Shown here: one piece after another, positions 3,139 to 38,956 of the stretch
Numbering within the stretch: position 1 is the stretch's first letter
Layout: each line of letters begins with the position of its first letter
Assembly (NCBI GenBank): GCA_027030425.1
Contig: JALVEW010000063.1
Coordinates: 1 to 38,956 of the forward strand
Direction of reading: 5' to 3'
Origin: Sedimenticola sp.
GTDB lineage: Bacteria; Pseudomonadota; Gammaproteobacteria; Chromatiales; Chromatiaceae
Length of the DNA: 38,956 nt
Made by a program: the position numbers and the translations under genes
Notes under the pieces: model-generated
What the model saw: the letters and a program-made list of their open reading frames with translations, nothing else
Database searches by the model: none
What the model was told of the DNA's origin: nothing

Positions 3139-4707
3139 TCAGAGATTGAAGGTTTTCACCAGGAAAACAGCCATCTGGTCACGGGTGACGTTGGCATCAG
3201 GACAATAGTTGTTTCCTCCACAACCAGAGGTTATGCCTTCGCTCACCAATTGCTCAATCCAGGATGCAGCCCAGTGTCCGCTGGAAACATCGTCGAACAC
3301 GGTTCCGGTCGCTGTAGGAGGAATGTAATCCGAGCCGTGTTCAGACTTCAGCAGAAAAACCGCCATCTGCGCGCGTGACACGTTGTCATCAGGACAATAG
3401 TTGCCGTTACCACAGCCACTGGTAATACCATCCGCCGCCAGCTCTTCTATCCAGGAAGCCACCCAGTAACTGGCCGGCACATCATTGAACACCGTACCGG
3501 TGGCAGCAGGTGGCACATGACTGCTGCCTTTCATGCCCTTTTCGAGAAACACCGCCATTTGCGCGCGCGTCACCGGATCCTGGGGACAGTAGTTGTTGGC
3601 ATCGCACCCCGAAGTGATGCCACTCTTGGCCAATGTCTGAATATAGTCGTATGCCCAGTGATCGAAAGGCACGTCATCGAACAGGGGGCCGGTATAGACG
3701 TCGTTGAAGAACCAGCTCGCCGTATCGTTGAAATAGATATTCGCGGATGTAATCACCACATGACCGGCACCAATGAAACTTCCTCCCGTGGTGCACTGCG
3801 CAAACCCTGTCTTGGTGTTGTCGAACTCAAGACTGATATCGCAATTGGTATCAGTGATACCCTGGTATACAAGCCTGATACTGTAGTCATCCGCGCCTGT
3901 TGCCAATTCGTCCAGCCCGCTCATGGCATAACGCAGGGTGGCCACATCATCATGGTTCAGCGTGCGCTGGGCTTCATCAGCAAAAGTGCCCTGCTGCATG
4001 ACGGCCTCTGTATCCGCTACGCCCAACAACACGCCCACATCACGATCCGCGTTGGCGGCAAAACTGTGTCCGGTGGGAAGGTCAGCCACATCGCGGGAAT
4101 AAGTGGTAGAGTCCACGGTGGCATCCATGGTGAAAGGATTGTTATTGGAGATACGGAACCAGTGCAGGTTGACATCATCACCCCGCACATCATCGCTGGA
4201 GCCAATGACGCCATCATCGCCGGCATCAAGGTTGTATACACCATCTGTTCCTGTCGTGGCCTTGGTGTAATTTTGATCCCCACCCGTCAGGCCTGACTCA
4301 GTAGCCGCGTTGGGATGCGCCAAGCCCAGGCAATGCCCCATCTCGTGCAGCACCGTGGATTCGAAATCTACATCACCCGCAGGAATATTGGTGTTACTGC
4401 CGAACAGGAGATTACCCGTGGTGGCCTGCTGGATATTGAAGGTCGCCACCACATTCTTCACGGACGTTTCCATGGCACTGGCATTGGCGGTACCCGGCAC
4501 GATACACACATTCAAGACCACTTCCTGGCTGGTGCCCGTATAACCCGCGGGATGGGTAACGACATCCACCCCGTTCGCATCGCCCGCGAAGACAAAGGCT
4601 CCCGCCTGAACACTGCCGGCAGCGAGAGCAAATGCGGTGCCCACCAGGGACCTCAGGATGGCAGAGCCGGTTCTGACGGCAGGGGTTCTGTAGTCCGCAT
4701 TCATCAT
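3139..4707 (-). CDS. Secreted metzincin-type metalloprotease with three C-terminal SLH repeats
   Basis: The N-terminus has a signal peptide ending near 'AAGSVQAGA'. A zinc site HEMGHCLGLAH lies near residues 121-131, matching the HExxHxxGxxH signature of metzincins (matrixin-like M10 family), and 'AVMQQG' downstream may supply the Met-turn. From about residue 341 come three repeats of about 64 residues, each with 'F.DV', an aromatic-rich helix, 'GITSGC', 'NYCP' and '(T/S)R(A/D)QMAVFL', which is a variant S-layer homology motif. The frame could open at GTG 4719, but a GGAGG sequence directly before ATG 4707 favours that start. It follows the small exported protein by 13 bp, so both are likely one transcript. 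Probable job: a protease held on the cell surface or capsule through SLH binding. Confidence 0.85.
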   Translation of the reverse strand: MMNADYRTPAVRTGSAILRSLVGTAFALAAGSVQAGAFVFAGDANGVDVVTHPAGYTGTSQEVVLNVCIVPGTANASAMETSVKNVVATFNIQQATTGNLLFGSNTNIPAGDVDFESTVLHEMGHCLGLAHPNAATESGLTGGDQNYTKATTGTDGVYNLDAGDDGVIGSSDDVRGDDVNLHWFRISNNNPFTMDATVDSTTYSRDVADLPTGHSFAANADRDVGVLLGVADTEAVMQQGTFADEAQRTLNHDDVATLRYAMSGLDELATGADDYSIRLVYQGITDTNCDISLEFDNTKTGFAQCTTGGSFIGAGHVVITSANIYFNDTASWFFNDVYTGPLFDDVPFDHWAYDYIQTLAKSGITSGCDANNYCPQDPVTRAQMAVFLEKGMKGSSHVPPAATGTVFNDVPASYWVASWIEELAADGITSGCGNGNYCPDDNVSRAQMAVFLLKSEHGSDYIPPTATGTVFDDVSSGHWAASWIEQLVSEGITSGCGGNNYCPDANVTRDQMAVFLVKTFNL

Positions 4708-4720
4708 AATGTCCTCCACC

Positions 4721-5281
4721 TCAGTCCAGTTTCTTCATTTTTGGGTGATGCAACAGCTGTTGCAATAAACGCTCGGTATCCGCCAGCTCCACCAGATCTT
4801 TCAATTCTGAATGCCGCTGGGCATCGTTCTGCAGGTTGGTCCAGGCGATATCCCTTGCCGGGCCATTGATGCCCGTATTGACGGTCATGTGGGTGTAGGT
4901 GTTGTCCGAAATCGCAAACAGCTGTCCGCTCCGGGCCCTCGCAGTGGCCTCGGCGGCATGAAGATCCCTTTCGACAGCAGCCTTGTCGAAATCCGCCACC
5001 GAGGGGTTTTCCAGCCGCTCTTTCAACATCTTGAGTTCTGCAGCGGACAGGAAATACTCATAGTCCCCGCTGTTCTTCTTCCAGGCTGGCAGGTGCACCC
5101 GCACGCGCCCGCTGTCGAACACCTGCAGCATAGGGATACCGTCGAAAGCAATCATGTCATGGGTTTGGGTGTAACGCAGCAACTCCTGCTCGCTGTCAGA
5201 GGCCGCCATGGCGGCAGACAACCAGGCGCTGCATCCCAAAATCGTCAGTAACAATAAACCAGGAATCTTAACCATCTTCAT
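4721..5281 (-). CDS. Small exported protein upstream of the SLH protease
   Basis: I do not recognise this family. The 186-residue product begins with a signal peptide ('KIPGLLLLTILGCSAWLSA', cleavage near 'AMAAS') and continues as a charged, helical-looking soluble protein. The frame stays open upstream to 5392, but that extension is encoded by a repeat element (5308-5477), so I take ATG 5281; ATG 5275 is possible. It lies just upstream of the metzincin-SLH gene with 13 bp between them, which suggests a functional link such as an inhibitor, chaperone or partner of the protease. This link is inferred from position only. Confidence 0.7.
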   Translation of the reverse strand: MKMVKIPGLLLLTILGCSAWLSAAMAASDSEQELLRYTQTHDMIAFDGIPMLQVFDSGRVRVHLPAWKKNSGDYEYFLSAAELKMLKERLENPSVADFDKAAVERDLHAAEATARARSGQLFAISDNTYTHMTVNTGINGPARDIAWTNLQNDAQRHSELKDLVELADTERLLQQLLHHPKMKKLD

Positions 5282-5307
5282 GCTCTCCAATGGGCTTGGG
5301 GATATTA

Positions 5308-5477
5308 TTAACAGGCTGTTGAAAAACATCATTTTTCGACAGCCTGTGTATGGCACTAGGATATGCCACCATTTTCGGTGGCTGTAAGCCATTGAAAATG
5401 AAGGAAGCGGGAAACCGGGTTTTCCGCTTCCGTAGTTGAATATAGTCCATGGAAGGACTTTTTCAACATCCTGTTAA
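5308..5477. repeat. 170-bp three-hairpin MITE-like repeat, copy A
   Basis: Its ends are inverted copies of each other (TTAACAGGCTGTTGAAAAA on the left, TTTTTCAACATCCTGTTAA on the right). Inside are a strong hairpin (GTTGAAAAA facing TTTTTCGAC) near the left end, a central hairpin (GGAAGCGG facing CCGCTTCC) and a weaker right-end hairpin. A second copy lies in opposite orientation at 34027-34195. It has no coding capacity beyond short fortuitous frames that extend the neighbouring gene's frame upstream. Confidence 0.85.
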
Positions 5478-5794
5478 GTCAGGAACGCTACCCGGCAGGC
5501 ATTCTGGCGGGGGAGTCCAATCACGGCGCGAAGCAGTCCGGCTCTGCCTGACCTTTCAAGGGATATCGATTGTAACAGCAGAACAAGGCGGCGTGGAAAC
5601 TCACCCGCGCGATTGTGGCTGGTTTCTCATCAGGAAGGTGCGTGGCGCTGAATGCGCTTTGGTAAACAGAATTCATGCGGCTGTCTCTTCGGCACGAGCA
5701 CCTGTCACTCTCATTATTGATGACGCCAAACCATTGAAAACAAGGAAATCATGACCAGAAGCCGGCATCCAGGCCAGTTGCCGGTTCTGCACAA
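5478..5794. other. Intergenic stretch with no supported gene
   Basis: Short frames exist here on both strands, but the predicted peptides have no signal, motif or low-complexity pattern typical of a gene, and one of them begins inside the repeat element. It probably holds the promoter for the leftward small-protein/protease pair, but I could not identify one with confidence. Confidence 0.4.
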
Positions 5795-5824
5795 AGGAAA
5801 ACCGGGAGTGGCACAGCCACCCCC
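5795..5824 (-). terminator. Probable terminator after the large SLH gene
   Basis: Read leftward, a GGGGGTGGC / GCCACTCCC stem with a tiny loop is followed by GGTTTTCCTTT. The stem is strong but the T-run is broken, so termination may be partial. Confidence 0.4.
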
Positions 5825-5908
5825 AGTCAATACGGAACATACACTACTATCCCCTTTTCTGTTTTGGCAGTCGGCAGTGAACCCAACTAGCATTCACCGC
5901 CAACGCCA

Positions 5909-8900
5909 TCAGGGATGTATCGGCAGATTAAACACTCGCTGAATGAACACAGCCATCTGGCCTCTCTCTACCGGGCTCTCGGGACAGTAGTTATTGCCAC
6001 CACACCCAAGGGTAATCCCTTCGGCCGCCAGCTGCTCTATCCATGACGCAGACCAGTAGCTGGCATCCACGTCGTCGAACACGGTACCCGATGCCGGGGG
6101 CGGCATATAGCTGGCGCCATGCTTGGCCTTCAGCAGGAACACCGCCATCTGTCCGCGAGTGACCTGATCATCCGGACAATAGTTGCCATTGCCGTCGCAC
6201 CCCGAAGTCATGCCGTCCGCGACAAACTGCTCTATCCAGGCGGCCGCCCAGTAGCTGGCAGACACATCATTGAACACGGAACCCGTTGCAGGCGGCGGCA
6301 CATAGTCACTGCCATGGATACCACGTCCCAGGAACACCGCCATCTGCGCCCGGGATACACTACTGAGGTCACAATAGTTTGGCAATGGTACGGCATTATC
6401 ACAACCCGAGGTGATTCCAGCGAGACCGATGGATTGAACATAGTTGTAGAACATATGCGCGGGTTGAACATCCGCGAACATCTGCTCATAGGGAATGACC
6501 GTGAACTCCACGGGTATGGGCAATGCACCATAAGGCGCATCATTGGCCACCTTGACATGCGCCAAATAGACACCGGGAGTCAATGCCGTGCTGTCGAAGG
6601 TAAACTCAATGGGTTCGCTGCCACCAGCAGCAACGGTTCCCTCTGCAGGGCTTTCACTCAGCCAGTCGATACCCAGACAGGCTACGTTTTCACCTGAATC
6701 GATCTCCAGAATGGCATCATCCCCCGCGCCATCACCAGTTGCCTGTTGTACGGCCCACAAATGGCCATCACAACTCATACCCAGACCGCCCTGCCTGAGG
6801 TCAGGAATTCCCGTATCGAAGCTTGCCAGGACCGCGTAGTCATTGGCGACATCCAGCACCGCGATATCATCGCCACCCGCGGCATCGACATTGGACAGCA
6901 CGAACAGGTGCCCGGTGACCGGGTTGAAAGCCAAGCCTGAAATCGACAGCCCCACGTTCTTGGAATCCAGAATGGTTCCGCTACGGTCGAAGTGATGAAT
7001 GGTGGAGTCGTTCCAGCTTCCGGCATAGAAGGTATCCGTCACCGGATCATAGGCCAGGCCGCGCATGGAAGTGCCAAACGCCGGGCAGATACTGTTGCCC
7101 GTGGGCGCCAGGGTAACCGGGTCGGATTCATAGACACAGTTGTCGCCTCCCACGTTGACCTGCCAAAGCGTGCCGTTCAACATGTCATAGGCCCCGTCAC
7201 CAACATAGACTGCCATCCAAGTGGGCGTGATGCTGTCCCCGGTATCCGTGCCGTCACGCAGGAACCGGTGATTATCATCATCCGTACCGCCAACAAAGGC
7301 GCCAATATTGTTCACCCACAGGTCATTGGCATCCTTGTTGAAGGAAATGCCCCAGGGGGAACCCAGTCCCGTCACGAACTGGCTCAATATGTCTCCCGCT
7401 GCATTCGGGTTGGGCAGGCTCTCTGTTCCCTTGTTCAGGAAAACAGGCGTATAGCGCAGCAAGCGGGCATCTTTGTCATGCAGGTGCTTGGGCGACGCAT
7501 GCCTTACCTTTTCCGCCCAAGGCCCCGTGGCCTGGGGCGCGGTGTAGGGAACATCGAATTCGAACAACTTGTAGGCCACATCCGCGCCGCCAGCGTTGGC
7601 AAGCTCCAGACTCTTGGGCCAGCTCATGCCTTCCCACAAGGTCATGGTAATCGGCGACGGCGTCGCCGCAAGCATGCCTGCGGGAAGGGCAAAATTCTGG
7701 CGCAAGACACCCCCGGCGGGCACGGTCACCGACTGGGTGGCTGTGCCATAACCTGTAGCCGTGGCCTCAACGCTGATGGCCACGCCAGCCGGTACAGGCA
7801 GGGAGAAAAATCCATCATCCAATGCCGCATCATCCGGCGTGGCCATACTGATGGATGCGTGGGAGCCATGACTTATTGTCGCTCCATTGACAGGCACGAC
7901 GGTATTGGCGTCATACACATTGCCCACCAGCAAGCCTCCCACGCTGGAATCCGGAACACATCCGCCGGCCTTCACATCATCGATCTGCGCATACCAGTCC
8001 CAATCACCCGTGTTGGGGTCATAGTAATGCCAGCGCAGCTGGTAGCTGGTGGCTCCAGCCAGAAACCCGGTCAGATCCAGGCTCACCGCCTCTCCAGGAG
8101 TGCTACGGAGACCGCCGTGATCCTCATTCCATCTGAGCACATTGGTCCAGGCGCCGCCATCGACGCTGATATCGACATCCAGGAAATCAAGATTGGCATA
8201 GTTTTGGTAGTTGGCTACATACGTCAGGGTTTCACCGCCAATCACTGGAACAACCGGTGATACCAGGGAAGTATCGAACTCTGCCGACCCGAACGCGTCA
8301 CTACTGACGGAAGCCGCGTCGCCGGTACCGCCAGTGTAGTTCCCGCTCTCGCCAGAACCCGCCACGTTGCTCCAGACCACGCCGTTGCCAGCGTCATCCA
8401 CGACACTCCAGCCGGAGGGGGGGAAGGTGGCACCATTGAAATCCTCGGTCAAGCCATCAACCATATAACCAGGCGCGGAGCAGGCGAGACTATCGACCAG
8501 CATGGCGAAGTCTTCCGTGCTGGGTGCTGCGGGCACCGTGATTCCCCTTGCCTGGCTGACGTAGCCATCCACGGCCACGTTGATAGTGACGTTCGCCCCC
8601 TGCGGCAAACTGACGCTGTAAGCCCCTGTTGCCGGGTCGGTATAAAGGGTAGGAATGGGCGCGCCCGCGATATCGATGGTCGCGTACAGGGGCCAGCCCT
8701 TACCGGACCCGTCGGTCACGGTGCCACTGATGGTGGTCATGGATGCTTGTGCCAAATTGAAGTCCTGAATCGTGGTCGCGCCGTCTGTCACGGCAACCCC
8801 GCTTACTGAGCTCGTCACATAGCCAAACTTGGATGCCGTCACTGTGTATGTACCCACTGGAATGCTGGCGAAGTTGTATACGCCACTTGCATTCGTGGTG

Positions 8901-10624
8901 GTGGTAATGCCGCCAGCATCCACGAGGACACCTTCGAGAGGAGCGCCGCTACTGGTCACCGTGCCCGTCAGGGTACCAGAGGGACCGGCGGAACAACTTG
9001 GAAACTTGAAAGAGCCTATCCTTGTCTGCCAGCCTGCAGAACTATCCGCGGAGTAATATTCCTGGGTATACCAGAAGGTGCAGTCATCCGTGGGATCCAC
9101 GCTCATGGCCGAATAGTCGCCCCAGCGACCACTGGAATGGCTTTGGGAACCGCCCCCCGCTATCAGCGTTGCTTCACCCTGCGGCAGGGTATCAGCAGGA
9201 TCGCTCACCAGACGCCCGGTGTAGCGAATGGACGGATAGGTGTTGGCTCCGGATACGGAATAGCCAATGGCGATATTCCCCTGGGCATCCATAGCAGCAG
9301 ACCCGAGCCAACGGTTATCGGCATCCGGTGCATAGGTTCCCTGGTTGGCCACCGTCCAGCCGGCACCGGTATTACGCAACTCGTACCAGCGCACGCCTGC
9401 CTTGTCGGCACCATTGGCATCCACCGTGTGGTTGGTCACCATGGCCTCATACCCACCGAAATTGCGGTACTGGACCCTGTACATGAGCCGGTCCGCCAGG
9501 GAATCCACGGCCGTACCACCGGGCTGACCAATACAGTTGCGGGAACCCCCGCACATATCGGGATCGAAAGACGCAACCGCCGGAGACGTCAGCGAGGTGA
9601 AAGTGGCATTGGCTGGCGTGGTCCAGTCCACATGGAAGGCCCAGATATCAAGAGATGCATTGTCGCCACCCAACTGGACGAACAAATTGGGAGCGCCCGA
9701 GGGCGGCGGTGTGACACCATCCCAGTCGGCAGGCAGCATGGCACCCAGAGAAGGATCCGGGTCATCGAAATAAATCATCTGCGCAGACAGGCCCGCCAGC
9801 ATCTTGTCCCGTTCGAAGGCCACGGCGCCCTGACCCGCCCAGCTGTTGCCGATAAACTGGTTAACCGCCATGTAGTAGCCGTCCGGCCAGATACCAAAAT
9901 GTGGATAGTCATTCATCTTGGTATCGCTGATTTTGAAGTCATACAGATAGAAAGCGCCCGTGGGGTCACCCGTCTCCGAAATAGCGATACATTGATGGAA
10001 ACCTTGGGTACCATTGAAATCCAGGGCAAACTGACTGAGTAGCCAGCGATCAGCCGCCTGGTCATAGAGGACGATGGGATCGCCGTCATTGTTGACCCTG
10101 CAGATATTTCCTGCTGGAAGGGCGGACCAAATGGTGTTGGAAGCGAGAGGCCCCAGGAGACTGGTGCCGCTCTTGTCCCATACCTGGTAGCTCAGGTTTA
10201 CCATCTGGACATAATGACCAGGACCTACATCTCCCACCGTATCGGGCGGCAGTACGCCATTGACATTGTTTATGCCTTCGAAATTCACCACCGTGCCAGG
10301 CATTTTGGCGTCCAAGGGTGCCTGATCCTGAACGACGGGATCAGTGATGACAGGAGTGTTGCCCTTCTTTTCCGGTCTGTTACGGGGAACAGGAAGGGCT
10401 GGATAGGCTTCCACCACGCCAGTGGCCTGGGGCAGCTGCGGAGGGGATATGGCCAACTCACGCAACGGCCGCGTCTTTGCCACCGCTACCGATGTCGAAA
10501 CCTTGGGCTGCGCGGATACGCCACTGGCAGCGGCATTTGCAGACGTGGAAATACCCAACACGGATACTGAAAAGACGAGCGCGACCGTCTTGAACAGCCG
10601 CCTGATACCGGATTTCAAATCCAT
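5909..10624 (-). CDS. Giant secreted multidomain protein with three C-terminal SLH repeats
   Basis: A 1571-residue exported protein. A signal peptide (positive charges, hydrophobic core, cleavage near 'SANAAASG') is followed by a region of about 500 residues with aromatic and Asp-rich motifs that suggest a beta-propeller-like fold. Next come carboxypeptidase-regulatory-like beta-sandwich modules (about residues 555-720, for example 'GTLTGTVTSSGAPLEGVLV'), a MAM/jelly-roll-like segment (about 735-895), another regulatory-like module, a second propeller-like stretch and a short Ig-like module ending near 1380. The last 190 residues are three SLH repeats with 'GC..NYC' cysteine pairs. ATG 10624 is preferred over ATG 10630 because AGGGG lies at proper distance. 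No catalytic motif is evident; a surface adhesin or scaffold is likely. Confidence 0.85.
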   Translation of the reverse strand: MDLKSGIRRLFKTVALVFSVSVLGISTSANAAASGVSAQPKVSTSVAVAKTRPLRELAISPPQLPQATGVVEAYPALPVPRNRPEKKGNTPVITDPVVQDQAPLDAKMPGTVVNFEGINNVNGVLPPDTVGDVGPGHYVQMVNLSYQVWDKSGTSLLGPLASNTIWSALPAGNICRVNNDGDPIVLYDQAADRWLLSQFALDFNGTQGFHQCIAISETGDPTGAFYLYDFKISDTKMNDYPHFGIWPDGYYMAVNQFIGNSWAGQGAVAFERDKMLAGLSAQMIYFDDPDPSLGAMLPADWDGVTPPPSGAPNLFVQLGGDNASLDIWAFHVDWTTPANATFTSLTSPAVASFDPDMCGGSRNCIGQPGGTAVDSLADRLMYRVQYRNFGGYEAMVTNHTVDANGADKAGVRWYELRNTGAGWTVANQGTYAPDADNRWLGSAAMDAQGNIAIGYSVSGANTYPSIRYTGRLVSDPADTLPQGEATLIAGGGSQSHSSGRWGDYSAMSVDPTDDCTFWYTQEYYSADSSAGWQTRIGSFKFPSCSAGPSGTLTGTVTSSGAPLEGVLVDAGGITTTTNASGVYNFASIPVGTYTVTASKFGYVTSSVSGVAVTDGATTIQDFNLAQASMTTISGTVTDGSGKGWPLYATIDIAGAPIPTLYTDPATGAYSVSLPQGANVTINVAVDGYVSQARGITVPAAPSTEDFAMLVDSLACSAPGYMVDGLTEDFNGATFPPSGWSVVDDAGNGVVWSNVAGSGESGNYTGGTGDAASVSSDAFGSAEFDTSLVSPVVPVIGGETLTYVANYQNYANLDFLDVDISVDGGAWTNVLRWNEDHGGLRSTPGEAVSLDLTGFLAGATSYQLRWHYYDPNTGDWDWYAQIDDVKAGGCVPDSSVGGLLVGNVYDANTVVPVNGATISHGSHASISMATPDDAALDDGFFSLPVPAGVAISVEATATGYGTATQSVTVPAGGVLRQNFALPAGMLAATPSPITMTLWEGMSWPKSLELANAGGADVAYKLFEFDVPYTAPQATGPWAEKVRHASPKHLHDKDARLLRYTPVFLNKGTESLPNPNAAGDILSQFVTGLGSPWGISFNKDANDLWVNNIGAFVGGTDDDNHRFLRDGTDTGDSITPTWMAVYVGDGAYDMLNGTLWQVNVGGDNCVYESDPVTLAPTGNSICPAFGTSMRGLAYDPVTDTFYAGSWNDSTIHHFDRSGTILDSKNVGLSISGLAFNPVTGHLFVLSNVDAAGGDDIAVLDVANDYAVLASFDTGIPDLRQGGLGMSCDGHLWAVQQATGDGAGDDAILEIDSGENVACLGIDWLSESPAEGTVAAGGSEPIEFTFDSTALTPGVYLAHVKVANDAPYGALPIPVEFTVIPYEQMFADVQPAHMFYNYVQSIGLAGITSGCDNAVPLPNYCDLSSVSRAQMAVFLGRGIHGSDYVPPPATGSVFNDVSASYWAAAWIEQFVADGMTSGCDGNGNYCPDDQVTRGQMAVFLLKAKHGASYMPPPASGTVFDDVDASYWSASWIEQLAAEGITLGCGGNNYCPESPVERGQMAVFIQRVFNLPIHP

Positions 10625-10722
10625 AACCATCCCCTAAATGGTGATCGCAGGTCGTCCCTGCTTGTTATTCACGCGCATGTCGGCGCCAAAAAAACGAGGC
10701 CGGTTTGCATTTTGTCCTTGCG

Positions 10723-10751
10723 ATACTAGCGCTGGTGCGGGAAAGATGCAA
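10723..10751 (-). promoter_or_regulatory. Possible promoter of the large SLH gene
   Basis: Read leftward, TTGCAT and TAGTAT are 17 bp apart, about 100 bp before the start codon. Both hexamers are poor matches to the sigma-70 consensus, so this is only a candidate. Confidence 0.25.
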
Positions 10752-10842
10752 ACCAGTCCTCAGTTCTGATATGTAAACTTGACAACCCCAACAAGAGATG
10801 AGCGGCATGGACTGACAATAAGTCAACAACTATCACCTATCA

Positions 10843-11964
10843 TCACGGCTCATTCGATGAGGGAAAAGCATCCAGAAAGACCTGCTCGTAAGCTTCCAGC
10901 ACACTGTCCCAGCGAAAGGACTCACGAAATCTACGCCTGCTCCATTCTGACATTTCACTAATCCTTGACGCATCGTTCAGCAACTCATCAAGCCTGTTGG
11001 CGCAACTCTCCTGGTCAGAAAAATAGGCGGCCCCTTGTCCAGCCACCCAGCGGTTGTAGGCATTATCATGGGCGAGTACCGGCGATCCGGCCCCCAGGGC
11101 TTCAACCAGGGAAGGATTGGTGCCACCAACCGTGTGGCCATGAATGTACAGCCGGGTATGAAAGCGCAGTGCGGCAAGCACGGACTTGTCGTAAATGGCG
11201 CCGGGGAACATCACCTCATCGCTGGCCGCCTCCAGCAGCCTGTGGTGATAGGCATTCCCCCCTGGGTTCAGGTTTCCCAGCACCACCAGCCGGATACCTC
11301 TCCTCCGGGCAGAAAACGCCTGCACGATCTCCAGTATGGAGTTCTCCGGCTCAGGGCGGGCCACCACCAGGGCAAAACCGTCAGGTGTCAGGCCCAGTTC
11401 CCCCAGCAGGGTTTCATCCGCCGTGATGATCTCCTCCGCGCCATAGGGAATCATGGTGATCTTGCGGGCGGATACCCGCGTCTGCAGGTGTTTCTCGATC
11501 TCCGGGTGATCCGCGATGAGATGGTTGCCTATCAGGCAGCCCAGGCGTTCATTCAGATACAACCATGCACGTTCGTGTACTTTCCATTTTTTTCGTTTCC
11601 ACTCGATGCCATCCATGTTGATGATGTTTACCTTGCGTCCCATGCGGAAACGCAAGTTGAACAAGGCTGTGTTGTATCCCAGGGTCAGAATCAGGCGGTC
11701 ACTGTTGGCCGCATGCAGGACGGTCTTCCAGTCATACACTATGGTGCCCAAGGCACCTTGCTGGGTTACTGGAACATCTATCAACGTGACTCCCTTCCAC
11801 TCACGAACGGAAATTTCTCCAGAGCCATGCGTCTGGCAGTAGACCACAACATCCCAGCCCTTTTCCACCAGGAACAGGGCCAAATATTCGGCAAATGTTT
11901 CAAACCCGCCATGAGCGGCGGGTATGCCACGAGTCCCCAATATGGAAAGCTGTTTTCGGCTCAT
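10843..11964 (-). CDS. Glycosyltransferase with DUF1972 N-terminal domain (rhamnosyltransferase-like)
   Basis: The 373-residue protein opens with 'SILGTRGIPAAHGGFETFAE', the hallmark of the DUF1972 N-terminal domain found in capsule rhamnosyl- and related transferases (WchF/Cps2T type). The C-terminal half has the GT-B nucleotide-sugar region, including 'GTNPSLVEALGAGSPVLA', with the conserved acidic residue that binds the donor. It should act at the inner face of the inner membrane, adding one sugar to the lipid-linked repeat unit. It is the last glycan gene of the leftward run, 56 bp after the other glycosyltransferase. Donor and acceptor cannot be told from sequence. Confidence 0.88.
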   Translation of the reverse strand: MSRKQLSILGTRGIPAAHGGFETFAEYLALFLVEKGWDVVVYCQTHGSGEISVREWKGVTLIDVPVTQQGALGTIVYDWKTVLHAANSDRLILTLGYNTALFNLRFRMGRKVNIINMDGIEWKRKKWKVHERAWLYLNERLGCLIGNHLIADHPEIEKHLQTRVSARKITMIPYGAEEIITADETLLGELGLTPDGFALVVARPEPENSILEIVQAFSARRRGIRLVVLGNLNPGGNAYHHRLLEAASDEVMFPGAIYDKSVLAALRFHTRLYIHGHTVGGTNPSLVEALGAGSPVLAHDNAYNRWVAGQGAAYFSDQESCANRLDELLNDASRISEMSEWSRRRFRESFRWDSVLEAYEQVFLDAFPSSNEP

Positions 11965-12020
11965 GCGCTATTGTTCTCTGAACTTGGGAAAAATGCCTTC
12001 AATTGCCTTGCCAGGAAACA

Positions 12021-13226
12021 TCAGAGCAGCTTTCTGTACACATCCATGAGTTTTCGATAGTGATCTTCCGGATTGAATTTTCTTTCCACATTCTGCCGTC
12101 CTTTCTTTCCCATTGTTACCGCGGCACCACGATTTTCCCACATCCACTTCATGTATTCGCCCAGTTCCTGTGCATTACCAGGCTCAAACAGGAAACCATC
12201 AACCCTGTCCTCCACAACTTCCGGAATACCGCCAATCCGACTGGCAATGACCGGCTTTCCCTTGGCAAAACTTTCTATGCTGGTGAGACCGAAAGTCTCA
12301 TACCATTCGGATGGAATAATGGAACACACAGACCCCTTTATCACTTCGTAGAGGCTGGCCTGGTCCATGAACCCCCTGATGGTGACATTGTCCAGTTTCT
12401 CTTGGGCGACATAATCCCGCATAACCGGCTCCAGCCCCCCCGCTCCGACAAGAACCAGGTCGATGTCCCGGTGCATGGCCGCGGCTTTCAGCAGCGTCAT
12501 TATGCCCTTGTTCGCCTCGAAACGCCCAAAGTAGAGGAGGTAAGCCCCTTCATTCTCAGCCACCTCGATACCCGATACGTCGATATAGTTGTGTATGGCT
12601 GTTATGCGGTTTGGGCTCAGACCATGGGACACAAGCTTTTCCCGCATGAATTCGCTCACGGCAATGAAGTGATCTACGCCATCGATAGCCCCATTTTTCA
12701 CGGACACATAAGATTCCAGAGCGCTCAGGCCGGAACGCAGAAAGGAGCCCCGGTTACATCGTTGAAGCACAGCGTGATAATAGTGTCCGCCAGCACATTT
12801 TTCACACAGTTCACCGTGACAGGAAAGGGTGTAGACAGGGCATGAAAGCTTGAACTCATGGGTAGTCTGCACGATCGGGATACCCTTTTCGCGCAGGGGC
12901 TGAAGAATGGAGGAAGTCAGTTTGCCGTAATAGATATGCAGGTGTGCAATATCGATACTGATCTTTTCAAGCAACCGGGACATGGCGCGTTTCGCCGGCC
13001 TGGAATAGACATAATTGGTCAGATCCCATAATCCCGGATGCTCAAAGTCAGGAGCTGGTGGAAAATAAGATTCCCACTCGGAAGGAAGATTATCGGGGTG
13101 CTTTCCCGCAAAAGGAATGACCTTGTGACCATGGCGGGTCAGCAGCTCAGCAAGCTGAAACTGATATCGGTCTGACCCACCGATTATCCGGTAATTCTGG
13201 CCGGCATTAAGAAGCTTCAGTTTCAT
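12021..13226 (-). CDS. GT4-family glycosyltransferase
   Basis: A 401-residue GT-B enzyme. The N-terminal Rossmann half contains 'GGSDRYQFQLAELLTRHGH' and a cysteine cluster ('CPVYTLSCHGELCEKCAGG') common in this GT4 subgroup after the 'HEFKL' motif. The C-terminal half shows 'YFGRFEANKGI' and 'IPSEWYETFGLTSIESFAKG', including the E-x7-E type donor-binding motif. I chose ATG 13226, which begins with the usual beta strand ('MKLKLLNAG'); the frame extends to 13322 but that part overlaps the polymerase gene more deeply. The chosen start still overlaps that gene by 20 bp. It adds a sugar during assembly of the surface polysaccharide; specificity unknown. Confidence 0.88.
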   Translation of the reverse strand: MKLKLLNAGQNYRIIGGSDRYQFQLAELLTRHGHKVIPFAGKHPDNLPSEWESYFPPAPDFEHPGLWDLTNYVYSRPAKRAMSRLLEKISIDIAHLHIYYGKLTSSILQPLREKGIPIVQTTHEFKLSCPVYTLSCHGELCEKCAGGHYYHAVLQRCNRGSFLRSGLSALESYVSVKNGAIDGVDHFIAVSEFMREKLVSHGLSPNRITAIHNYIDVSGIEVAENEGAYLLYFGRFEANKGIMTLLKAAAMHRDIDLVLVGAGGLEPVMRDYVAQEKLDNVTIRGFMDQASLYEVIKGSVCSIIPSEWYETFGLTSIESFAKGKPVIASRIGGIPEVVEDRVDGFLFEPGNAQELGEYMKWMWENRGAAVTMGKKGRQNVERKFNPEDHYRKLMDVYRKLL

Positions 13227-14523
13227 GGTCAGTGCCAAGCGATCGGGGAGCCGGTTTCGAGCAAAGCGATTGATCCCCGGCCACTTCACCAGCTTTGAAG
13301 GCCAGCGCAAACAGCAGGGCATTGTAGGAATACATGAACAAAGGGTTCACAACAGCCACCAGCAACATGAATATCAGGACAATACGAAAATACAGCATTT
13401 TCCTGCTGTTTCCCGCCGCCCGCGCCTTGCTGCGATAATAAACATAGGCAAGAGCAATGCCGAACAACAGCAGGCCCATTGCACCAAACTCACCACTGAT
13501 GGTTGCAAGATTGCTGTCGTATACGCCTTCCATTTGCTCAAAAAATCGCATGTCCGACAGGCCGAGATCCTCATATACAGGGCTGCCGCCAGATTCAACA
13601 CTGCCGAAAGTGGCTGCTCCCGTGCCGATGGGGAAGTAACGCAACAGAAGCACAAAGCCGTAGTAAATCATGATGCCTCTTATATACAGGGAATTCTCGA
13701 TATCAGACAGTTCGGAGACATTCTTGATGGTGCGCTGCAGCATGTCTTGCACAAAGCCGGAAAACACCACCAATCCAAGGAGCGCCATGAGAAGCATGGC
13801 GCCTAGAACCTTCCATTGCCGTGTATAAACGAAGTACACCAGCAAGGTTATCGGTATAGCCGCTAGTGCGGCGCGCGAGCCCGTTATCAGTATCAGCAGA
13901 AAAAACAAGGCGGTGAAGAAAACGATATTTGGCAGATTGCCACTGAATCTGAAAACAAAATAATAGATAAAGGCTATTCCCAAATGTATGCCCAGGTCAT
14001 TTGGCTTTAGCTGAAACCCCTCTATCCTGAGTATGCCTGCCCTATAGGCGGGAGGCACGTTGAAAAAATCCAGGAAACGTTCCTGCAAAAAAAGATTCAG
14101 CAGGAAGCCGGCAATGGACACGGCCATCACAAATACAAAAAGCTTACGGATGGATTTGCCACCAGGATCAGCCAATTGAACAAGATCCAGCGCCATGAGA
14201 AAAACAAAAAACTTCCAGTGAATGACAGACTGAACGACTATTTTTTCCATGCTGCTCTGGAACCCCAGCATGGATACGACAACGAAATAAGCCAGCACCG
14301 CACAAGAAAGAAGAAAAAGCGGGCTGGTCCTGCCCGTCACCAGTGCGCGCACCACCAGGAACGCAAGCACGCCTATGACAAAAACCTCGTCCAGGTACTT
14401 GATGGCGGAGCCGGGAAAAAGGCGAATGAACGGCTCCTGAAAAAATATGACGAGCAGAAAAAGCAGAACCATGCCGACAAGAAATCGGTAACCAGATGCT
14501 TCCCTGGCTCCCGCCATATTCAT
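13207..14523 (-). CDS. Wzy-like O-antigen/EPS polymerase (O-antigen ligase family membrane protein)
   Basis: About 438 residues with ten or more hydrophobic segments and a large polar loop near residues 285-340, the topology of Wzy polymerases and WaaL-type ligases. Segments include 'ITGSRAALAAIPITLLVYF', where the 'GSR(A)' pattern before a membrane helix is typical of the O-antigen ligase/polymerase family. Its place beside Wzx-like and Wzz-like genes makes polymerase more likely than ligase. ATG 14523 has GAGG upstream at good spacing; ATG 14538 is the alternative and would overlap the preceding gene. It would polymerise repeat units on the periplasmic side. Confidence 0.82.
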   Translation of the reverse strand: MNMAGAREASGYRFLVGMVLLFLLVIFFQEPFIRLFPGSAIKYLDEVFVIGVLAFLVVRALVTGRTSPLFLLSCAVLAYFVVVSMLGFQSSMEKIVVQSVIHWKFFVFLMALDLVQLADPGGKSIRKLFVFVMAVSIAGFLLNLFLQERFLDFFNVPPAYRAGILRIEGFQLKPNDLGIHLGIAFIYYFVFRFSGNLPNIVFFTALFFLLILITGSRAALAAIPITLLVYFVYTRQWKVLGAMLLMALLGLVVFSGFVQDMLQRTIKNVSELSDIENSLYIRGIMIYYGFVLLLRYFPIGTGAATFGSVESGGSPVYEDLGLSDMRFFEQMEGVYDSNLATISGEFGAMGLLLFGIALAYVYYRSKARAAGNSRKMLYFRIVLIFMLLVAVVNPLFMYSYNALLFALAFKAGEVAGDQSLCSKPAPRSLGTDHETEAS

Positions 14524-14530
14524 TGCAGCC

Positions 14531-15607
14531 TCATTCAATGCCCGCCCTCGCCAAATCCTGATCTATTGAGTCCCATACGGCATGCAATTCATCCAGCAAA
14601 CGTGCCCGGGTTTCAGGACTCAAAACAAAACCCTTGCCATCTCTGAGCAAGGTTATGATGCGATCCTTCAGCCCTTCGTCAACACGCTGCACAGGCACTT
14701 CGATTTCCGGTGAAATCATCCCGAACAAGGCGCTGACCTTGTGTTGACCTGCCACGGGTATAACCACCTTGCCAGACAACATTCCCGCTATCAGACCATG
14801 CATGCGGGTGCTTACAAGGACATCGCAGCTGTCGCAGACAGTCTCCAGCAACGCAACCCCATCATCTGGCTGAAACAACTGCAAATCATGGGCATGCGCC
14901 AGTTTTTCTCCGAAAGTCCGGTCAACCTCTGAAGTCACGATAATCCTGACATCCCAGCCCCTTTCCTTGAGTTCACCAACCAGCTCCTGGTACTGGGCTT
15001 CGTAAGTCTGCAGGGAAATAGAGGTGAGTCGCTCGTTCCAGAACAATTCCTCGTGGGCAAATGGCACAATAGCCAGCCTGTTTCCGTTTCCCCTTCCAGC
15101 CTGGCATTCCCAGGTACAAAAAAAAGCGCCGTCAGGGGACAAGCGTGTGTCGCTTCGGTTTGCAATCCTGTTAATGACTTCCATGGAGTGCCCATCCCTG
15201 GCCCAATTGGCTTTCGTCATCTTGAATCCAAGCCCATAGAGTTTCCCGCCTATCCAGCTGGAGCGGCTACTTGCCCCCATGAACGCCGTGTACAGATTCC
15301 TTCGCAGCAGGAAAGCAACCAGACAATATACAAAAAAACTCACAGCAAACCGCAGAACCCTGGGAATGACAAGATTGCCCCCTGCTATGACCACGGCATC
15401 ATTGCGGCGTACAGCCCTGTATACCCGTCCCAGGCCGAGCAGGCCGTTAAGCCATTTGCTGCCTTTCATCCCGTTGTAGTAGAGAAACGGCAGCCGTTCC
15501 ACCTGCCATCCACTCCTGGATTCGGCATCGGCGGACAGGGATTCCGAAATCAGAAGATCACCACTGTTGTGGGAATACATATGGGTAATCAGGAGAATAC
15601 GCCTCAT
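14531..15607 (-). CDS. Polysaccharide pyruvyl transferase (CsaB-like family)
   Basis: A 358-residue protein matching the polysaccharide pyruvyl transferase family. It starts 'RRILLITHMYSHNSGDLLI' (GT-B-like first strand with a 'N.GD' turn), has 'VVIAGGNLVIPRVLR', and near the end 'VLVSTRMHGLIAGMLSGK', the conserved 'RxHG' motif of this family. Such enzymes transfer pyruvate from phosphoenolpyruvate to a sugar to make an acidic ketal; CsaB does this on the cell-wall polymer that SLH domains bind. The gene overlaps the flippase gene by 4 bp and lies immediately before the polymerase gene. Some family members act on other glycans or lack pyruvyl activity, so the reaction is a strong inference. 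Confidence 0.85.
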   Translation of the reverse strand: MRRILLITHMYSHNSGDLLISESLSADAESRSGWQVERLPFLYYNGMKGSKWLNGLLGLGRVYRAVRRNDAVVIAGGNLVIPRVLRFAVSFFVYCLVAFLLRRNLYTAFMGASSRSSWIGGKLYGLGFKMTKANWARDGHSMEVINRIANRSDTRLSPDGAFFCTWECQAGRGNGNRLAIVPFAHEELFWNERLTSISLQTYEAQYQELVGELKERGWDVRIIVTSEVDRTFGEKLAHAHDLQLFQPDDGVALLETVCDSCDVLVSTRMHGLIAGMLSGKVVIPVAGQHKVSALFGMISPEIEVPVQRVDEGLKDRIITLLRDGKGFVLSPETRARLLDELHAVWDSIDQDLARAGIE

Positions 15608-16953
15608 TTACGCAATACCCGTGAATAAATCGGTGCCATGTAACGTAAAGCTCCAAGCCACATCATAAGCAACAGGATCAAGCGTAACCACAGCTCACCG
15701 TGCAGCCACATATAAATCATGAATACGGCCGTGCCTGCAGCCACAATCACCAGGAAATCCTGTTGCGCCGGCCGGGCGGCAGCATTGATTTTTCTGGAAC
15801 AAAACCTGAACCCCAACCAGAGGCCAAGATCGGACAGGAGGATCGCGGTCACCGCGCCGTATATCCCCATTGAAGGGATAAGCACCAGATTAAGGCAGAT
15901 ATTTCCAACTGCGACAACAAGGGTGGTATATAACTTCCAGCGATTGTAATCGCTTGCCGATATTATCGCAGAGTCTGTGTACTTGGTGAAGCGCAGCAGA
16001 ATCAGCGGCGACAGCATGAGCAGGATTCTGGCACTCTCCTGAAACTCAACACCGTACATGAAATGAATCAGTTCAGGAGAAACCAGCGCAATGGTAAACA
16101 TCAGCAACATCCCACCCCCCCATTCGATTGCCCTGTTTTCTTCTATCACCTGTTTCAGCGCATCATTCCGGCTCTGGCTCATGAACCTGGAGACATCCGG
16201 ATAATAGAGGTTGAACAAGGTCTGGGGGATGACGATCAAGGCCATGATGATACGCATGGCGGCACTGTACAAAGCTATTTGCTCATAGGGTGCTCCCAGG
16301 TACTTCAACAAGACGATATCGAGCTGCAGCATGGAGACGATCAGTACTGCATGCAGGACATAGCTCCAGCTTCCCTGTATCAACACGCGGACAGCTGGTG
16401 ACTTCTGATTTCTGGCAAGATCCGCAATCCGGGGCAGAAGCAGGGATATGTACACCAGTTTCGCCAGAGAAAAGGCCAGGTACATCAGAATAAGCTGCTT
16501 GATCCATACGCCGGCAATAAGCATCAGCACCAGCAATATGGTCTTTTCCGCGGAGTGATACAGGGATTCCCTGACAAACCGCTTTTCATGGTAAAGAAGG
16601 GATCGACCCAATGAAATCAGGGACTCCAGGTAAAAGGAGGCAAGCAGATAGTAGATTTTTCCATCCAAATGAAGCAGGGAAACCAGCAACAGCACCAGCA
16701 GGAACAGAAACGTCTTTATCAGAAACAGCTTGCCGAACAGGCTGCGGCTGGAACCATATCTGGCCAGAAGAGGAATCTGGTACAGATCTCCCCCATTGTC
16801 GACAATGACGAAAACCAGCGCCGCCAGCGCAAAAAGGTAAGAGAACTCTCCGAAGGACTCCGGCCCGAAACTGCGCGCCAGCACTACGAAGAACAGGAAC
16901 ATCACCGCTTTTTCAAGAAAGCGCGATGCCAGAAGCAGAATACGTTGCCTCAC
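15604..16953 (-). CDS. Wzx-type polysaccharide flippase
   Basis: A 449-residue protein with about twelve to fourteen membrane helices, starting 'RILLLASRFLEKAVMFLFFVVLARSFGPESFGEFSYLF'-like sequence in which 'ARSFGPESFGEFSY' is the family's first-loop signature (MATE/MOP superfamily polysaccharide exporters). It would flip lipid-linked repeat units across the inner membrane for the polymerase. Translation starts at GTG 16953. It overlaps the pyruvyl transferase gene by 4 bp, which indicates tight co-expression. Confidence 0.9.
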   Translation of the reverse strand: MRQRILLLASRFLEKAVMFLFFVVLARSFGPESFGEFSYLFALAALVFVIVDNGGDLYQIPLLARYGSSRSLFGKLFLIKTFLFLLVLLLVSLLHLDGKIYYLLASFYLESLISLGRSLLYHEKRFVRESLYHSAEKTILLVLMLIAGVWIKQLILMYLAFSLAKLVYISLLLPRIADLARNQKSPAVRVLIQGSWSYVLHAVLIVSMLQLDIVLLKYLGAPYEQIALYSAAMRIIMALIVIPQTLFNLYYPDVSRFMSQSRNDALKQVIEENRAIEWGGGMLLMFTIALVSPELIHFMYGVEFQESARILLMLSPLILLRFTKYTDSAIISASDYNRWKLYTTLVVAVGNICLNLVLIPSMGIYGAVTAILLSDLGLWLGFRFCSRKINAAARPAQQDFLVIVAAGTAVFMIYMWLHGELWLRLILLLMMWLGALRYMAPIYSRVLRK

Positions 16954-17049: not shown

Positions 17050-18396
17050 TCATTGCTCTGAAACCTGTTCTGGACTGTTTTTCTGTTCGACAGGCTCCAC
17101 GCCTGCACAAACCACAGACAGGTCCTTGTCCTTGAACATGTTTACTGCCCATTTCTGCTTGGCATACGCCGCCCTGCAATACCATTTGTGCCCTTCCTTG
17201 AGATTCTTTGCAACACCAAGACCATTGGCATAGAGGTTGGCCAGCCCGTACATGGAATCACCATCTCCCTGTGCTATGCCTTTTTTGTACCAGTACATGG
17301 CCTGGCCATAGTCCTGCCCCACGCCATTTCCCTCTGCATACATGGTTCCCAAGGCATACTGCGCTGGCGCATAGCCCTGGGTGGCCGCCTTTTTGGTCCA
17401 CTGGAATGCCTGCTCCGCCCGGTCTGTCAGCTTTTCATCCTTGGCCAGGATCTGGGCCAGGGCATACTGGGACATGGCGTATCCAGCTTTTGCCGCCCGG
17501 GTATACCACTCCCTCGCCTTGGCGGCATCCTTCTCTACGCCAAGCCCCTTGTCATAGGCATAAGCCACATCGTGTTGGGCCGCAACATAGTTGTTTTCTG
17601 CCGCTTTCAGCAGCCACTGAAAGCCTTTCTTTTCATCTTTTTCCAGGTATTTCCCCGTCATGTAGGCCGCACCCAGTTCATACTGTGCACGAGCATACCC
17701 CAGCTCCGCCGCCTTGCGGATATTTGCCAGACCTTCCTTGCTGTTCAAACTCTGACCTCTTGCCGGGTTCAGCATGGCAAGTTCATAAACCGCCTCGGGG
17801 CTCTTGTTCTCCATGGCTTTGCGAAGCCATTTGACGGCTTCACCAATGTCTTTTTCCACCCCCAGGCCATCTCTGTACAGACGTCCCAGGGCCAACTGTG
17901 CCATGACATGATTCCGGGCCGCCGCTTTCTTGAACAAGGACGCCGCTTCAGGAAAGTTTTTCTTCCCCTCTCTCATCAGCAGCAGTGCCAGTGCATACTG
18001 GGCCTGAGCATATCCCTGTGCCGCGGACTTCGACAGCCATTTCTTGGCAGCCTCTACATCCAAAGGCCTGCCTTCTCCCTTGAGATAAGCGATACCCAAA
18101 TTGTATTGCGCCTTGTCATGCCCTAACTCGGCCGCCTTGAGCAGCCAGTTGTTCCCTATTTCCTTGTCAACAGGAACACCCTCTCCCTTCAGGTACATGA
18201 AGCCAACGTTGAACTGCGCCTGCGTATTGCCCTGCTGTGCCAGCGGACGCCAATGAGCCAAGGCTTCCTCATAATTTCCAGCCTCATAGGCCGACAAGCC
18301 TGCGGCATATTCCTGCTCCTGGCCAGAACCCGCCAGTGACATCTGAGAACAGGCCAGAAAGGCCGCTATTATCCAAACCCTTGCAATCCCAATCAT
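17050..18396 (-). CDS. Exported Sel1-repeat protein
   Basis: The 448-residue protein starts with a signal peptide (cleavage near 'SLAGSG') and then consists of about ten Sel1-like tetratricopeptide repeats of about 36 residues, recognised by 'A.Y.LG..Y..G.GV..D...A..W..KAA..G'. Sel1 repeats form protein-binding solenoids, and such proteins occur in exopolysaccharide loci (for example AlgK-like secretion scaffolds). Here it sits between the chain-length and flippase genes, so a periplasmic scaffold role in polysaccharide export is plausible. The C-terminal tail after residue 400 has two cysteines that could pair. ATG 18396 has GGAG nine bases upstream. Confidence 0.87.
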   Translation of the reverse strand: MIGIARVWIIAAFLACSQMSLAGSGQEQEYAAGLSAYEAGNYEEALAHWRPLAQQGNTQAQFNVGFMYLKGEGVPVDKEIGNNWLLKAAELGHDKAQYNLGIAYLKGEGRPLDVEAAKKWLSKSAAQGYAQAQYALALLLMREGKKNFPEAASLFKKAAARNHVMAQLALGRLYRDGLGVEKDIGEAVKWLRKAMENKSPEAVYELAMLNPARGQSLNSKEGLANIRKAAELGYARAQYELGAAYMTGKYLEKDEKKGFQWLLKAAENNYVAAQHDVAYAYDKGLGVEKDAAKAREWYTRAAKAGYAMSQYALAQILAKDEKLTDRAEQAFQWTKKAATQGYAPAQYALGTMYAEGNGVGQDYGQAMYWYKKGIAQGDGDSMYGLANLYANGLGVAKNLKEGHKWYCRAAYAKQKWAVNMFKDKDLSVVCAGVEPVEQKNSPEQVSEQ

Positions 18397-18562: not shown

Positions 18563-19912
18563 TCAGGCCTGTATCGCCTTTTCCCGCATTTCCTCAATGA
18601 AGACCATCCCAATGCCCAATACCACGGCCAGAAAAAGGGCCACCAGCAGAATCACCCAACGTGGGATGGATGTTGGCTCGCTGGAAAGAGTCGGCACAGC
18701 CACTGCGCCGGTTTCAATGAAATTGTCCAACTGGCTCTGAATCTCAGCCACCAACTGCTCCTGGTTGCTGATGAGACGTTTCTGATCACTTTTCAGCTTG
18801 GCAATGCCGGCATTGATCTCCGCAATGCTGGCTTTCAGCTTGTCCTGATCAAGAGCATTTTGATCCTTAAGTTTTTGTAACTCAGCCTGGGCTACCAGAA
18901 CCCGCTGTTCCTGTGCCGCCTGCTGACGCAGGTTTTGTTCCAGCTGGCTGTGCAATCGAATCTTGTCATTTTCCAACTTTACGTATAGCAACTCCCTCAG
19001 TTCCGCCAACAGTTTCTGGTTTTCCAGCTTGTCCTTGTCTGCCAGCAGAAGGGAAGCGGTAACGGCGTCATTTCCTGCCTCCTCCGCCAGATTCTCATGC
19101 ATGGTTCTGGTGGCATTGGTTTGCGCTTCGAGTTCCGCAATCTGCTTTTTCACCAGTTCCTTGTGCACGTCGAGATTTTCGATTTGCTGATTGATGGTTG
19201 CGGCCCGGTCCTTGATCGCAGCCAACTCGTTCCTGGCTTCCTGAATCCTGTTCTCGGCGGCTTTAATCTCAACCCCAAAAATATTGGGATCCGCAAGCGC
19301 GCTCAGATCGGCCTGCAATTCACGCAAAATCTTTTCCTGAGGCTTGACCAATGCCTCCAACGTCGTTGGATCACGCAATTCATCCAAGCTGATACGAGCC
19401 TGAGCCAGTGCTGTCTGTATCTTTCTTTTCTGGGAATCTACGAGCTTGCGGTGGTTATTTGCAACGGCGGCGACGATATCCTTGTGTAATTTCTTGTATG
19501 TATCGACATCATCCATGCTGGTTCGGCTCTTGAGCAGCACTACCTCGCTCTTTTTTGGGATGCGAACCTTTACCCTGTAACGGTCCGAACTATCCGTATT
19601 GGCCTTGAATTCATTGATGACCTGCGGCACGAAGGTGTTTTCCAGTTTTGCCTTCACGGTTTCCGGGGCTTCCAGGGGGGTGAGTCCTTCACTGGTGGGT
19701 ATCGCCGCAATTTCCAGCGATGTGTTCAAATCATAAGCTTTGGGCAGAACCAGCGCCAATACCAGCCCCGCCACAACGACACTGGTGGCCGTCTTGAAGA
19801 ACAGCTTTCTGCGTCGGTTCAGGATTCGCCAGATCTCGACCAAGCTCACCTCCTGGTTCTGCGCAGGCAATGAGATGCTTGCATCATCTGAATCAGGCAG
19901 TACATTTTTCAT
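18563..19912 (-). CDS. Wzz/GumC-like polysaccharide chain-length determinant protein
   Basis: A 449-residue polysaccharide co-polymerase. The N-terminus contains 'VSLVEIWRILNRRRKLFF' followed by a membrane helix (about residues 41-57); a second helix lies near residues 418-437 with a short cytoplasmic tail. In between is a long, mostly helical coiled-coil region rich in Glu, Lys, Gln and Ala (about 150-390), as in the large Wzc/GumC periplasmic domains. There is no fused tyrosine kinase. It would set chain length and may organise the export machinery. It is the first gene of the leftward polysaccharide run. Confidence 0.88.
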   Translation of the reverse strand: MKNVLPDSDDASISLPAQNQEVSLVEIWRILNRRRKLFFKTATSVVVAGLVLALVLPKAYDLNTSLEIAAIPTSEGLTPLEAPETVKAKLENTFVPQVINEFKANTDSSDRYRVKVRIPKKSEVVLLKSRTSMDDVDTYKKLHKDIVAAVANNHRKLVDSQKRKIQTALAQARISLDELRDPTTLEALVKPQEKILRELQADLSALADPNIFGVEIKAAENRIQEARNELAAIKDRAATINQQIENLDVHKELVKKQIAELEAQTNATRTMHENLAEEAGNDAVTASLLLADKDKLENQKLLAELRELLYVKLENDKIRLHSQLEQNLRQQAAQEQRVLVAQAELQKLKDQNALDQDKLKASIAEINAGIAKLKSDQKRLISNQEQLVAEIQSQLDNFIETGAVAVPTLSSEPTSIPRWVILLVALFLAVVLGIGMVFIEEMREKAIQA

Positions 19913-27136: not shown

Positions 27137-27191
27137 ATTTCCAGTGGCAGGGACGCCGCAATCATCCACTCCACACCTGGCTCATGAACCC

Positions 27192-38587: not shown

Positions 38588-38956
38588 TCAGAGATCGAAG
38601 GTTCTCACCAGGAACACGGCCATCTGGTCACGACTGACCTCCGCGTCCGGACAGTAGTTGCTGGCATCGCAACCACCGGTGATACCTTCAACAGCCAGCT
38701 GTTCGATCCAGTCGGCGGCCCAGTGATCCACCGGAACATCATCGAACATGGCGCCGGTTGCCGCGGGCGGCACATAGGCGGAACCATACTTGGAACGCAG
38801 CAGGAACACCGCCATCTGGTCGCGGGTCACGATGCTTTCCGGGCAATAGTTGCCGCCGCCGCAGCCACCGGTGATGCCATCAGTAGCAAGCTGCTCTATC
38901 CAGGCTGCCGCCCAATAGGTATCGGGCACGTCGCCGAACATGGTTCCCGTTGCGGG
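38588..38956 (-). CDS. C-terminus of a third SLH-repeat protein (partial)
   Basis: About 122 residues are visible; the rest lies beyond the right edge. It holds two complete SLH repeats of the same type as the other two proteins: 'MFGDVPDTYWAAAWIEQLA' then 'GITGGCGGGNYCP' then 'VTRDQMAVFLL', and a second copy ending in 'VRTFDL'. The close similarity of spacing and of the 'GC..NYCP' cysteine pair to the repeats at 3139 and 5909 shows a common anchoring module used by several surface proteins of this organism. Confidence 0.88.
   Translation of the reverse strand, partial: PATGTMFGDVPDTYWAAAWIEQLATDGITGGCGGGNYCPESIVTRDQMAVFLLRSKYGSAYVPPAATGAMFDDVPVDHWAADWIEQLAVEGITGGCDASNYCPDAEVSRDQMAVFLVRTFDL

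Follow-up and report, generated by a model that had tools for sequence, protein, structure and literature searches.

A possible pyruvate-dependent anchor for SLH-domain proteins in the gammaproteobacterium Sedimenticola

The anchoring of SLH-domain proteins through pyruvate has been elucidated in Gram-positive bacteria and in a few deep-branching diderms. In the systems of Bacillus anthracis (Sap, CsaB) and Paenibacillus alvei (SpaA, CsaB), SLH triplets with ketal-binding residues occur together with a polysaccharide pyruvyl transferase (PPT) of the PF04230 family. The ketal pocket of SpaA consists of W13, G29 and R43, one residue from each repeat (PMC6081394), and the PEP-binding residues of P. 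alvei CsaB are R148, R306, H308 and K328 (PMC10435577). Other diderms, too, are known to anchor SLH proteins through pyruvate, while OmpM of the Negativicutes binds polyamines and has not kept the ketal motifs (PMC10628300). SLH domains of Proteobacteria are already present in domain databases, from 41 species (PMC6081394). In the open-licence literature, we found no description of SLH domains with Sedimenticola, of SLH domains with a PPT in Proteobacteria, or of such a system in Gammaproteobacteria.

The locus described here lies on a DNA stretch of 38,956 nucleotides (the window), which is contig 63 of a Sedimenticola sp. genome of 2.84 Mb and 99.5% completeness (G000). Its congeners in the named collections are Sedimenticola sp. 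MAGs, placed by the NCBI taxonomy in Gammaproteobacteria, Chromatiales, Sedimenticolaceae. Genes for LptD and SurA are present in the window and support an ordinary Gram-negative outer membrane, as had been assumed when the DNA was first annotated. With the B. anthracis and P. alvei systems the locus shares the predicted SLH triplet fold, the ketal-binding residues and a PF04230 enzyme with the PEP-binding residues; a UDP-GlcNAc 2-epimerase, as in the P. alvei-type system, is found in the cassettes of its congeners. It differs from them in that the host is a diderm gammaproteobacterium, the PPT scores far under the CsaB cut-off, each SLH repeat has an extra Cys pair, and a WecG/TagA-type transferase is missing in three of four genomes (absent in G000, G163 and G170, present in G172). 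The diderm Terrabacteria with pyruvylated polymers (Deinococcus-Thermus, cyanobacteria) likewise combine an outer membrane with SLH ketal motifs, but their SLH domains are mostly N-terminal on periplasmic outer-membrane barrels, whereas here they are mostly C-terminal on soluble exported proteins. Negativicute OmpM/Mep45, which binds polyamine-modified peptidoglycan, also has SLH domains in a diderm; the ketal motifs absent there are kept here. Finally, the WcaK-type PPTs of Gram-negative exopolysaccharides are PF04230 enzymes of Wzx/Wzy-type loci too. In contrast to these, the PPT of the window falls into a clade of its own with an enzyme of genome G596, is located with SLH genes and gave no match in a search with the WcaK model.

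Table 1. Features of the SLH and polysaccharide region in the window (positions of the window)
Feature	Position	Strand	Remarks
SLH protease	3139..4719	-	526 aa; three C-terminal SLH repeats; Pfam SLH E 1.8e-30, 105.1 bits
Unknown-function protein	4721..5392	-	Kept next to the SLH protease gene in congeners; homologs L025:8759-9559 and L029:2043-2612, 61-75% identical
Terminator-like hairpin	5800..5828	-	Directly after the SLH giant; 13-pair stem; consensus scan only
SLH giant	5909..10630	-	1573 aa; secreted, multi-domain; three C-terminal SLH repeats; SLH E 1.9e-8, 34.5 bits
Glycosyltransferase (DUF1972 / Cps2T-like)	10843..11964	-	Adjoins the SLH giant in four of four SLH-rich genomes
GT4 glycosyltransferase	12021..13322	-	Glycos_transf_1, 111 bits
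Wzy / O-antigen-ligase-like membrane protein	13207..14538	-	Wzy_C 30.0 bits, under the cut-off of 31.7
Polysaccharide pyruvyl transferase (PPT)	14531..15607	-	PF04230 E 1.8e-11, 44.9 bits
Flippase (Polysacc_synt)	15604..16953	-	33.5 bits; overlaps the PPT gene
Sel1-repeat protein	17050..18396	-	Kept in the congeners' cassette
Wzz-like chain-length protein	18563..19912	-	Wzz E 0.003, below cut-off; homologs in congeners
Third SLH protein, C-terminal end	38588..38956	-	Open at contig end; two repeats visible; E 4.6e-9, 36.6 bits

All three SLH genes of the window exceed the curated Pfam cut-off for SLH (PF00395, 20.8 bits). Pfam matches and gene layout agree with the initial annotation, which had placed two SLH-triplet proteins directly downstream of a Wzy-type polysaccharide locus with a pyruvyl transferase and a third SLH protein at the end of the window; the starts that it gave for the first two, 4707 and 10624, are alternative in-frame starts of the same genes. 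The smaller triplet protein is metzincin-like, with a signal-peptide-like N-terminus and with W, G, R and the Cys pair in each SLH repeat. Its HEMGHCLGLAH motif is intact, and the earlier label of protease is fair, though the Matrixin score of 22.7 bits is just short of the cut-off (24). The giant has three CarboxypepD_reg domains and a choice-of-anchor J domain besides its SLH repeats, which does not bear out the scaffold role assigned to it, and in its first SLH repeat Met replaces Trp. A Pfam search with the protein encoded at 4721-5392 gave no match.

When ten well-aligning SLH triplets (30 repeats; alignment A2) were compared, Trp13 was present in 29 of the 30 repeats, Gly29 and Arg43 in all, and a Cys pair was invariant in each repeat. 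Gly29 and Arg43 contribute to the SLH fold too. The grooves were scored for G29 in repeat n, W13 in n+1 and R43 in n+2, a pattern taken from PMC6081394; it is complete in all three grooves of the protease and in two of the three of the giant. The AlphaFold model of the protease triplet (pLDDT 93.8) gave Z 20.3 (rmsd 2.2) against Sap in complex with pyruvylated glycan and Z 18-20 against SpaA; the values were 21.4 for 3pyw and 20.3 for 6bt4, and the model has the three-lobed trimer fold with its grooves. Sap and SpaA structures, several of them holding pyruvylated sugar, all lay at Z 18-21, and all other fold matches were far lower. The SLH grooves keep the predicted ketal-binding residues, retention of residues being a different thing from a measurement of binding. 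An S-layer undecaheme cytochrome of Carboxydothermus (6qvm) was also among the fold matches.

SLH proteins are numerous in this genome. We counted 38 SLH repeats, spread over about 19 genes and 17 contigs, the gene number coming from searches and selected stretches; a few genes may be halves of one. Most of the proteins start with a signal-peptide-like stretch, as judged by eye. Nearly all C-terminal triplets stop 10-14 residues past the last motif, a short tail of the kind that an anchoring module would be expected to show. The remaining parts of these proteins include metzincin-like proteases, kelch propellers, CARDB, a proprotein-convertase P domain and a protein with five CxxCH motifs. The last of these, encoded on contig 10 (L062:5325-7568, plus strand), has 747 residues, five haem motifs and a C-terminal SLH triplet, and is possibly an envelope-anchored multiheme cytochrome. 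Three other genes (L055:8694-10700, L061:322-2565 and L058:1-446) encode one N-terminal SLH repeat each, and the repeats of the L061 protein resemble trimeric adhesin heads by eye. If such single-SLH proteins trimerise, three chains could build one SLH trimer by analogy with OmpM.

These architectures bear on where the proteins would be held. They might be attached beneath the outer membrane to peptidoglycan, or to a polymer linked to it (pyruvylated or not), in the manner of OmpM, and the outside location proposed at first would then be wrong. Described diderm SLH tethers of the OmpM type are indeed periplasmic (PMC10628300), the window shows no secretion beyond Sec, and the product of a Wzy/ligase system may be attached to either layer. 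However, no outer-membrane beta-barrel domain was found in the SLH proteins of the window, and their SLH repeats are C-terminal, so the architecture is not that of OmpM. Moreover, the kelch, CARDB and metzincin domains of the G000 proteins are usual in exported surface proteins, and the neighbouring locus looks like one for a surface polysaccharide. A periplasmic anchor is, in our judgement, improbable.

For a pyruvate-dependent anchor, the polysaccharide would be made by the Wzx/Wzy-type locus formed by the genes from 19912 down to 10843, in which adjacent genes overlap between 16953 and 12021. The SLH giant is encoded 213 bp beyond the last glycosyltransferase gene, in the same orientation, and a consensus scan found no minus-strand terminator-like site in this gap. 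The same kind of scan placed terminator-like sites directly after the giant and at 19971-19951, before the Wzz-like gene. With these two sites and the short gap, co-transcription of the polysaccharide locus and the SLH giant is plausible.

By genome search, the PPT of the window is the sole PF04230 gene in G000, and its score is above the curated cut-off of 25.3 bits. On the CsaB equivalog model (TIGR03609), it reached 32.7 bits against a cut-off of 213.1; hence, the label of CsaB family, given in the initial annotation, was too strong. Seven PPTs were aligned (A3), with CsaB numbering matched by motif and spacing. In this alignment, R137, R268, H270 and K290 of the window enzyme correspond to the PEP-binding residues of CsaB and are invariant. 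An AlphaFold model of the PPT was not used (pLDDT 64), its matches being epimerases and GT-B enzymes at a TM-score of ~0.33. No relative of this PPT was found in plasmid and viral collections; SLH matches in the plasmid collection were mostly from Firmicutes.

SLH domains were present in seven of the 210 genomes of the order. Four of these genomes (G000, G163, G170 and G172) form a single clade within the genus of the window, with marker identities to the window of 85-86% as against 75% or less for the rest, and therefore do not represent four independent events. Each has a single PPT gene, close to the same SLH genes; within the genus, the association of SLH with PPT gave a Fisher p of 0.011, kinship being ignored. 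In G163, G170 and G172, the PPT sits between the genes for the SLH protease and the SLH giant, in the order SLH protease, (unknown), (radical SAM), PPT, flippase, polymerase, Sel1, Wzz, SLH giant, two glycosyltransferases and 2-epimerase, with some genes missing or uncalled in individual genomes. The window has almost the same functions, arranged differently. The PPT of the window is not an ortholog of the congeners' enzymes, to which it is 22-27% identical over part of its length. Thus, the PPT differs between the window and its congeners while the linkage to SLH genes stays. The congeners' PPTs scored 101-107 bits on TIGR03609, below the cut-off, as compared with none to 72 bits for seven control PPTs, and so lean towards CsaB more than that of the window does. 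A scan of named genomes with the congeners' PPT gave matches only in two Sedimenticola MAGs. The UDP-GlcNAc 2-epimerase of the congeners' cassettes, which in G000 is located elsewhere (C253), could supply ManNAc. A protein with radical SAM and B12-binding domains is encoded in the cassette of two congeners (L025:9535-11094, L027:9931-11475) and is absent from the window.

The neighbourhood could also be a coincidence. The PPT would then simply decorate an exopolysaccharide, capsule or O-antigen, as such enzymes do in many Gram-negatives, and the SLH proteins would bind something else. WcaK and GumL are PPTs assigned to exopolysaccharides (PMC6801904), and PF04230 was found in 15% of the Gammaproteobacteria sampled and in 31% of the genomes of the order, nearly always without SLH. 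Two congeners without SLH, G175 and G176, have a PPT, of a distinct clade in the tree, in the syntenic polysaccharide locus, where homologs of 1661-3073 and of the window's Wzz-like gene are found nearby. A PPT can therefore exist in this locus without SLH. On the other hand, coincidence does not sit well with the persistence of the linkage around a non-orthologous PPT in the congeners, with ketal-pocket residues in nearly all SLH repeats, or with the recurrence of the linkage in G596. This genome, from another class, was the only other bulk carrier of A2-type SLH domains among 397 Pseudomonadota searched. It has two PPTs, one of which is 35% identical to that of the window over 343 aa and scores 66.5 bits on TIGR03609, below the cut-off. 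The clade of the two enzymes has a support of 100/99; long branches meet there, so the BLAST score was also used. In G596, 24 bp separate this PPT gene from an SLH-triplet gene in the same orientation, and a glycosyltransferase gene comes next. Judged purely by length, 6.5% of G000 is within 3.9 kb of an SLH gene, the distance seen in the window; for G596 the chance is about 2-7% even for a distance of up to 2 kb, varying with how many SLH genes there are. These percentages are rough estimates and not formal tests. Chance is a poor explanation for the pairing of PPT and SLH in two classes with one PPT subfamily, and we regard mere coincidence as rather unlikely. The SLH protein beside the G596 PPT (L126:14408-17791) contains FG-GAP repeats, matches Cytochrome_CBB3 and has three CX4CH motifs but no CxxCH.

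A survey of co-occurrence, suggested in the initial annotation, showed no significant class-wide association of SLH with PPT among 362 Gammaproteobacteria (2/7 versus 52/354, p 0.28), and we dropped it as support. SLH proteins in relatives lacking a PPT, which had been named as evidence against the anchor, do exist in part. The near complete genomes G239 and G459 lack PF04230, and their SLH triplets belong to another subtype; G059 has the same Cys-containing subtype and no PF04230 gene in a genome only 88% complete. Hence, a few SLH proteins can exist without a PPT. G164, an apparent further case, was rejected: its contig L015 is 99.96% identical over 2620 bp to a G000 contig (L064, G000:C52), the two bins being of different species, and contamination of this public genome during binning is likely. 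G520, with both SLH and PPT, was left unused, since its SLH domains have no Cys pair and an actinobacterial look by eye. Both of the lineages in which this SLH subtype was seen in bulk have a PPT near an SLH gene.

The analysis shows which genes are present, their linkage, the retained residues and a predicted fold; from these we infer the activity, glycan, binding and location that follow. The Wzx/Wzy-type locus would make a polysaccharide, to which the PPT would add pyruvate ketals from PEP. The exported SLH-triplet proteins (~19 genes, for metalloproteases, kelch propellers, the five-haem-motif cytochrome and others) would bind these ketals in the Trp/Gly/Arg pocket between SLH repeats, and would thereby be held on the envelope. 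A pyruvate-dependent SLH anchor in Pseudomonadota is the best explanation, and one that we hold with moderate confidence. The initial proposal of such an anchor is partly supported: it gains from the kept grooves, the sole PPT and the linkage in congeners and G596, and loses the CsaB equivalog and the class-wide co-occurrence. More tentatively, and with some doubt, we suggest a complete pyruvate-dependent SLH display for ~19 exported proteins, the five-haem-motif cytochrome among them, in which unrelated PPTs interchange at the locus and one non-CsaB subfamily serves in two classes. If true, SLH-pyruvate anchoring can work in a classical LPS-bearing cell, a second PPT subfamily would be named for SLH anchoring, and the display of many enzymes, perhaps with a multiheme cytochrome, would be explained with no need for lipoprotein or sortase-like anchors. 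The presence of different PPTs at a single locus offers a natural test of glycan specificity.

Two further observations were made in the window. The gene at 35163-35885 (minus strand) encodes a secreted-looking protein whose hydrophobic C-terminal tail, followed by basic residues (29 residues in all), resembles a sorting signal; a domain-model search gave no family match for it. Two SCO1/SenC-like genes are located at 20072-20665 (minus strand) and 27144-27782 (plus strand), and homologs of one match the other at ~44%.
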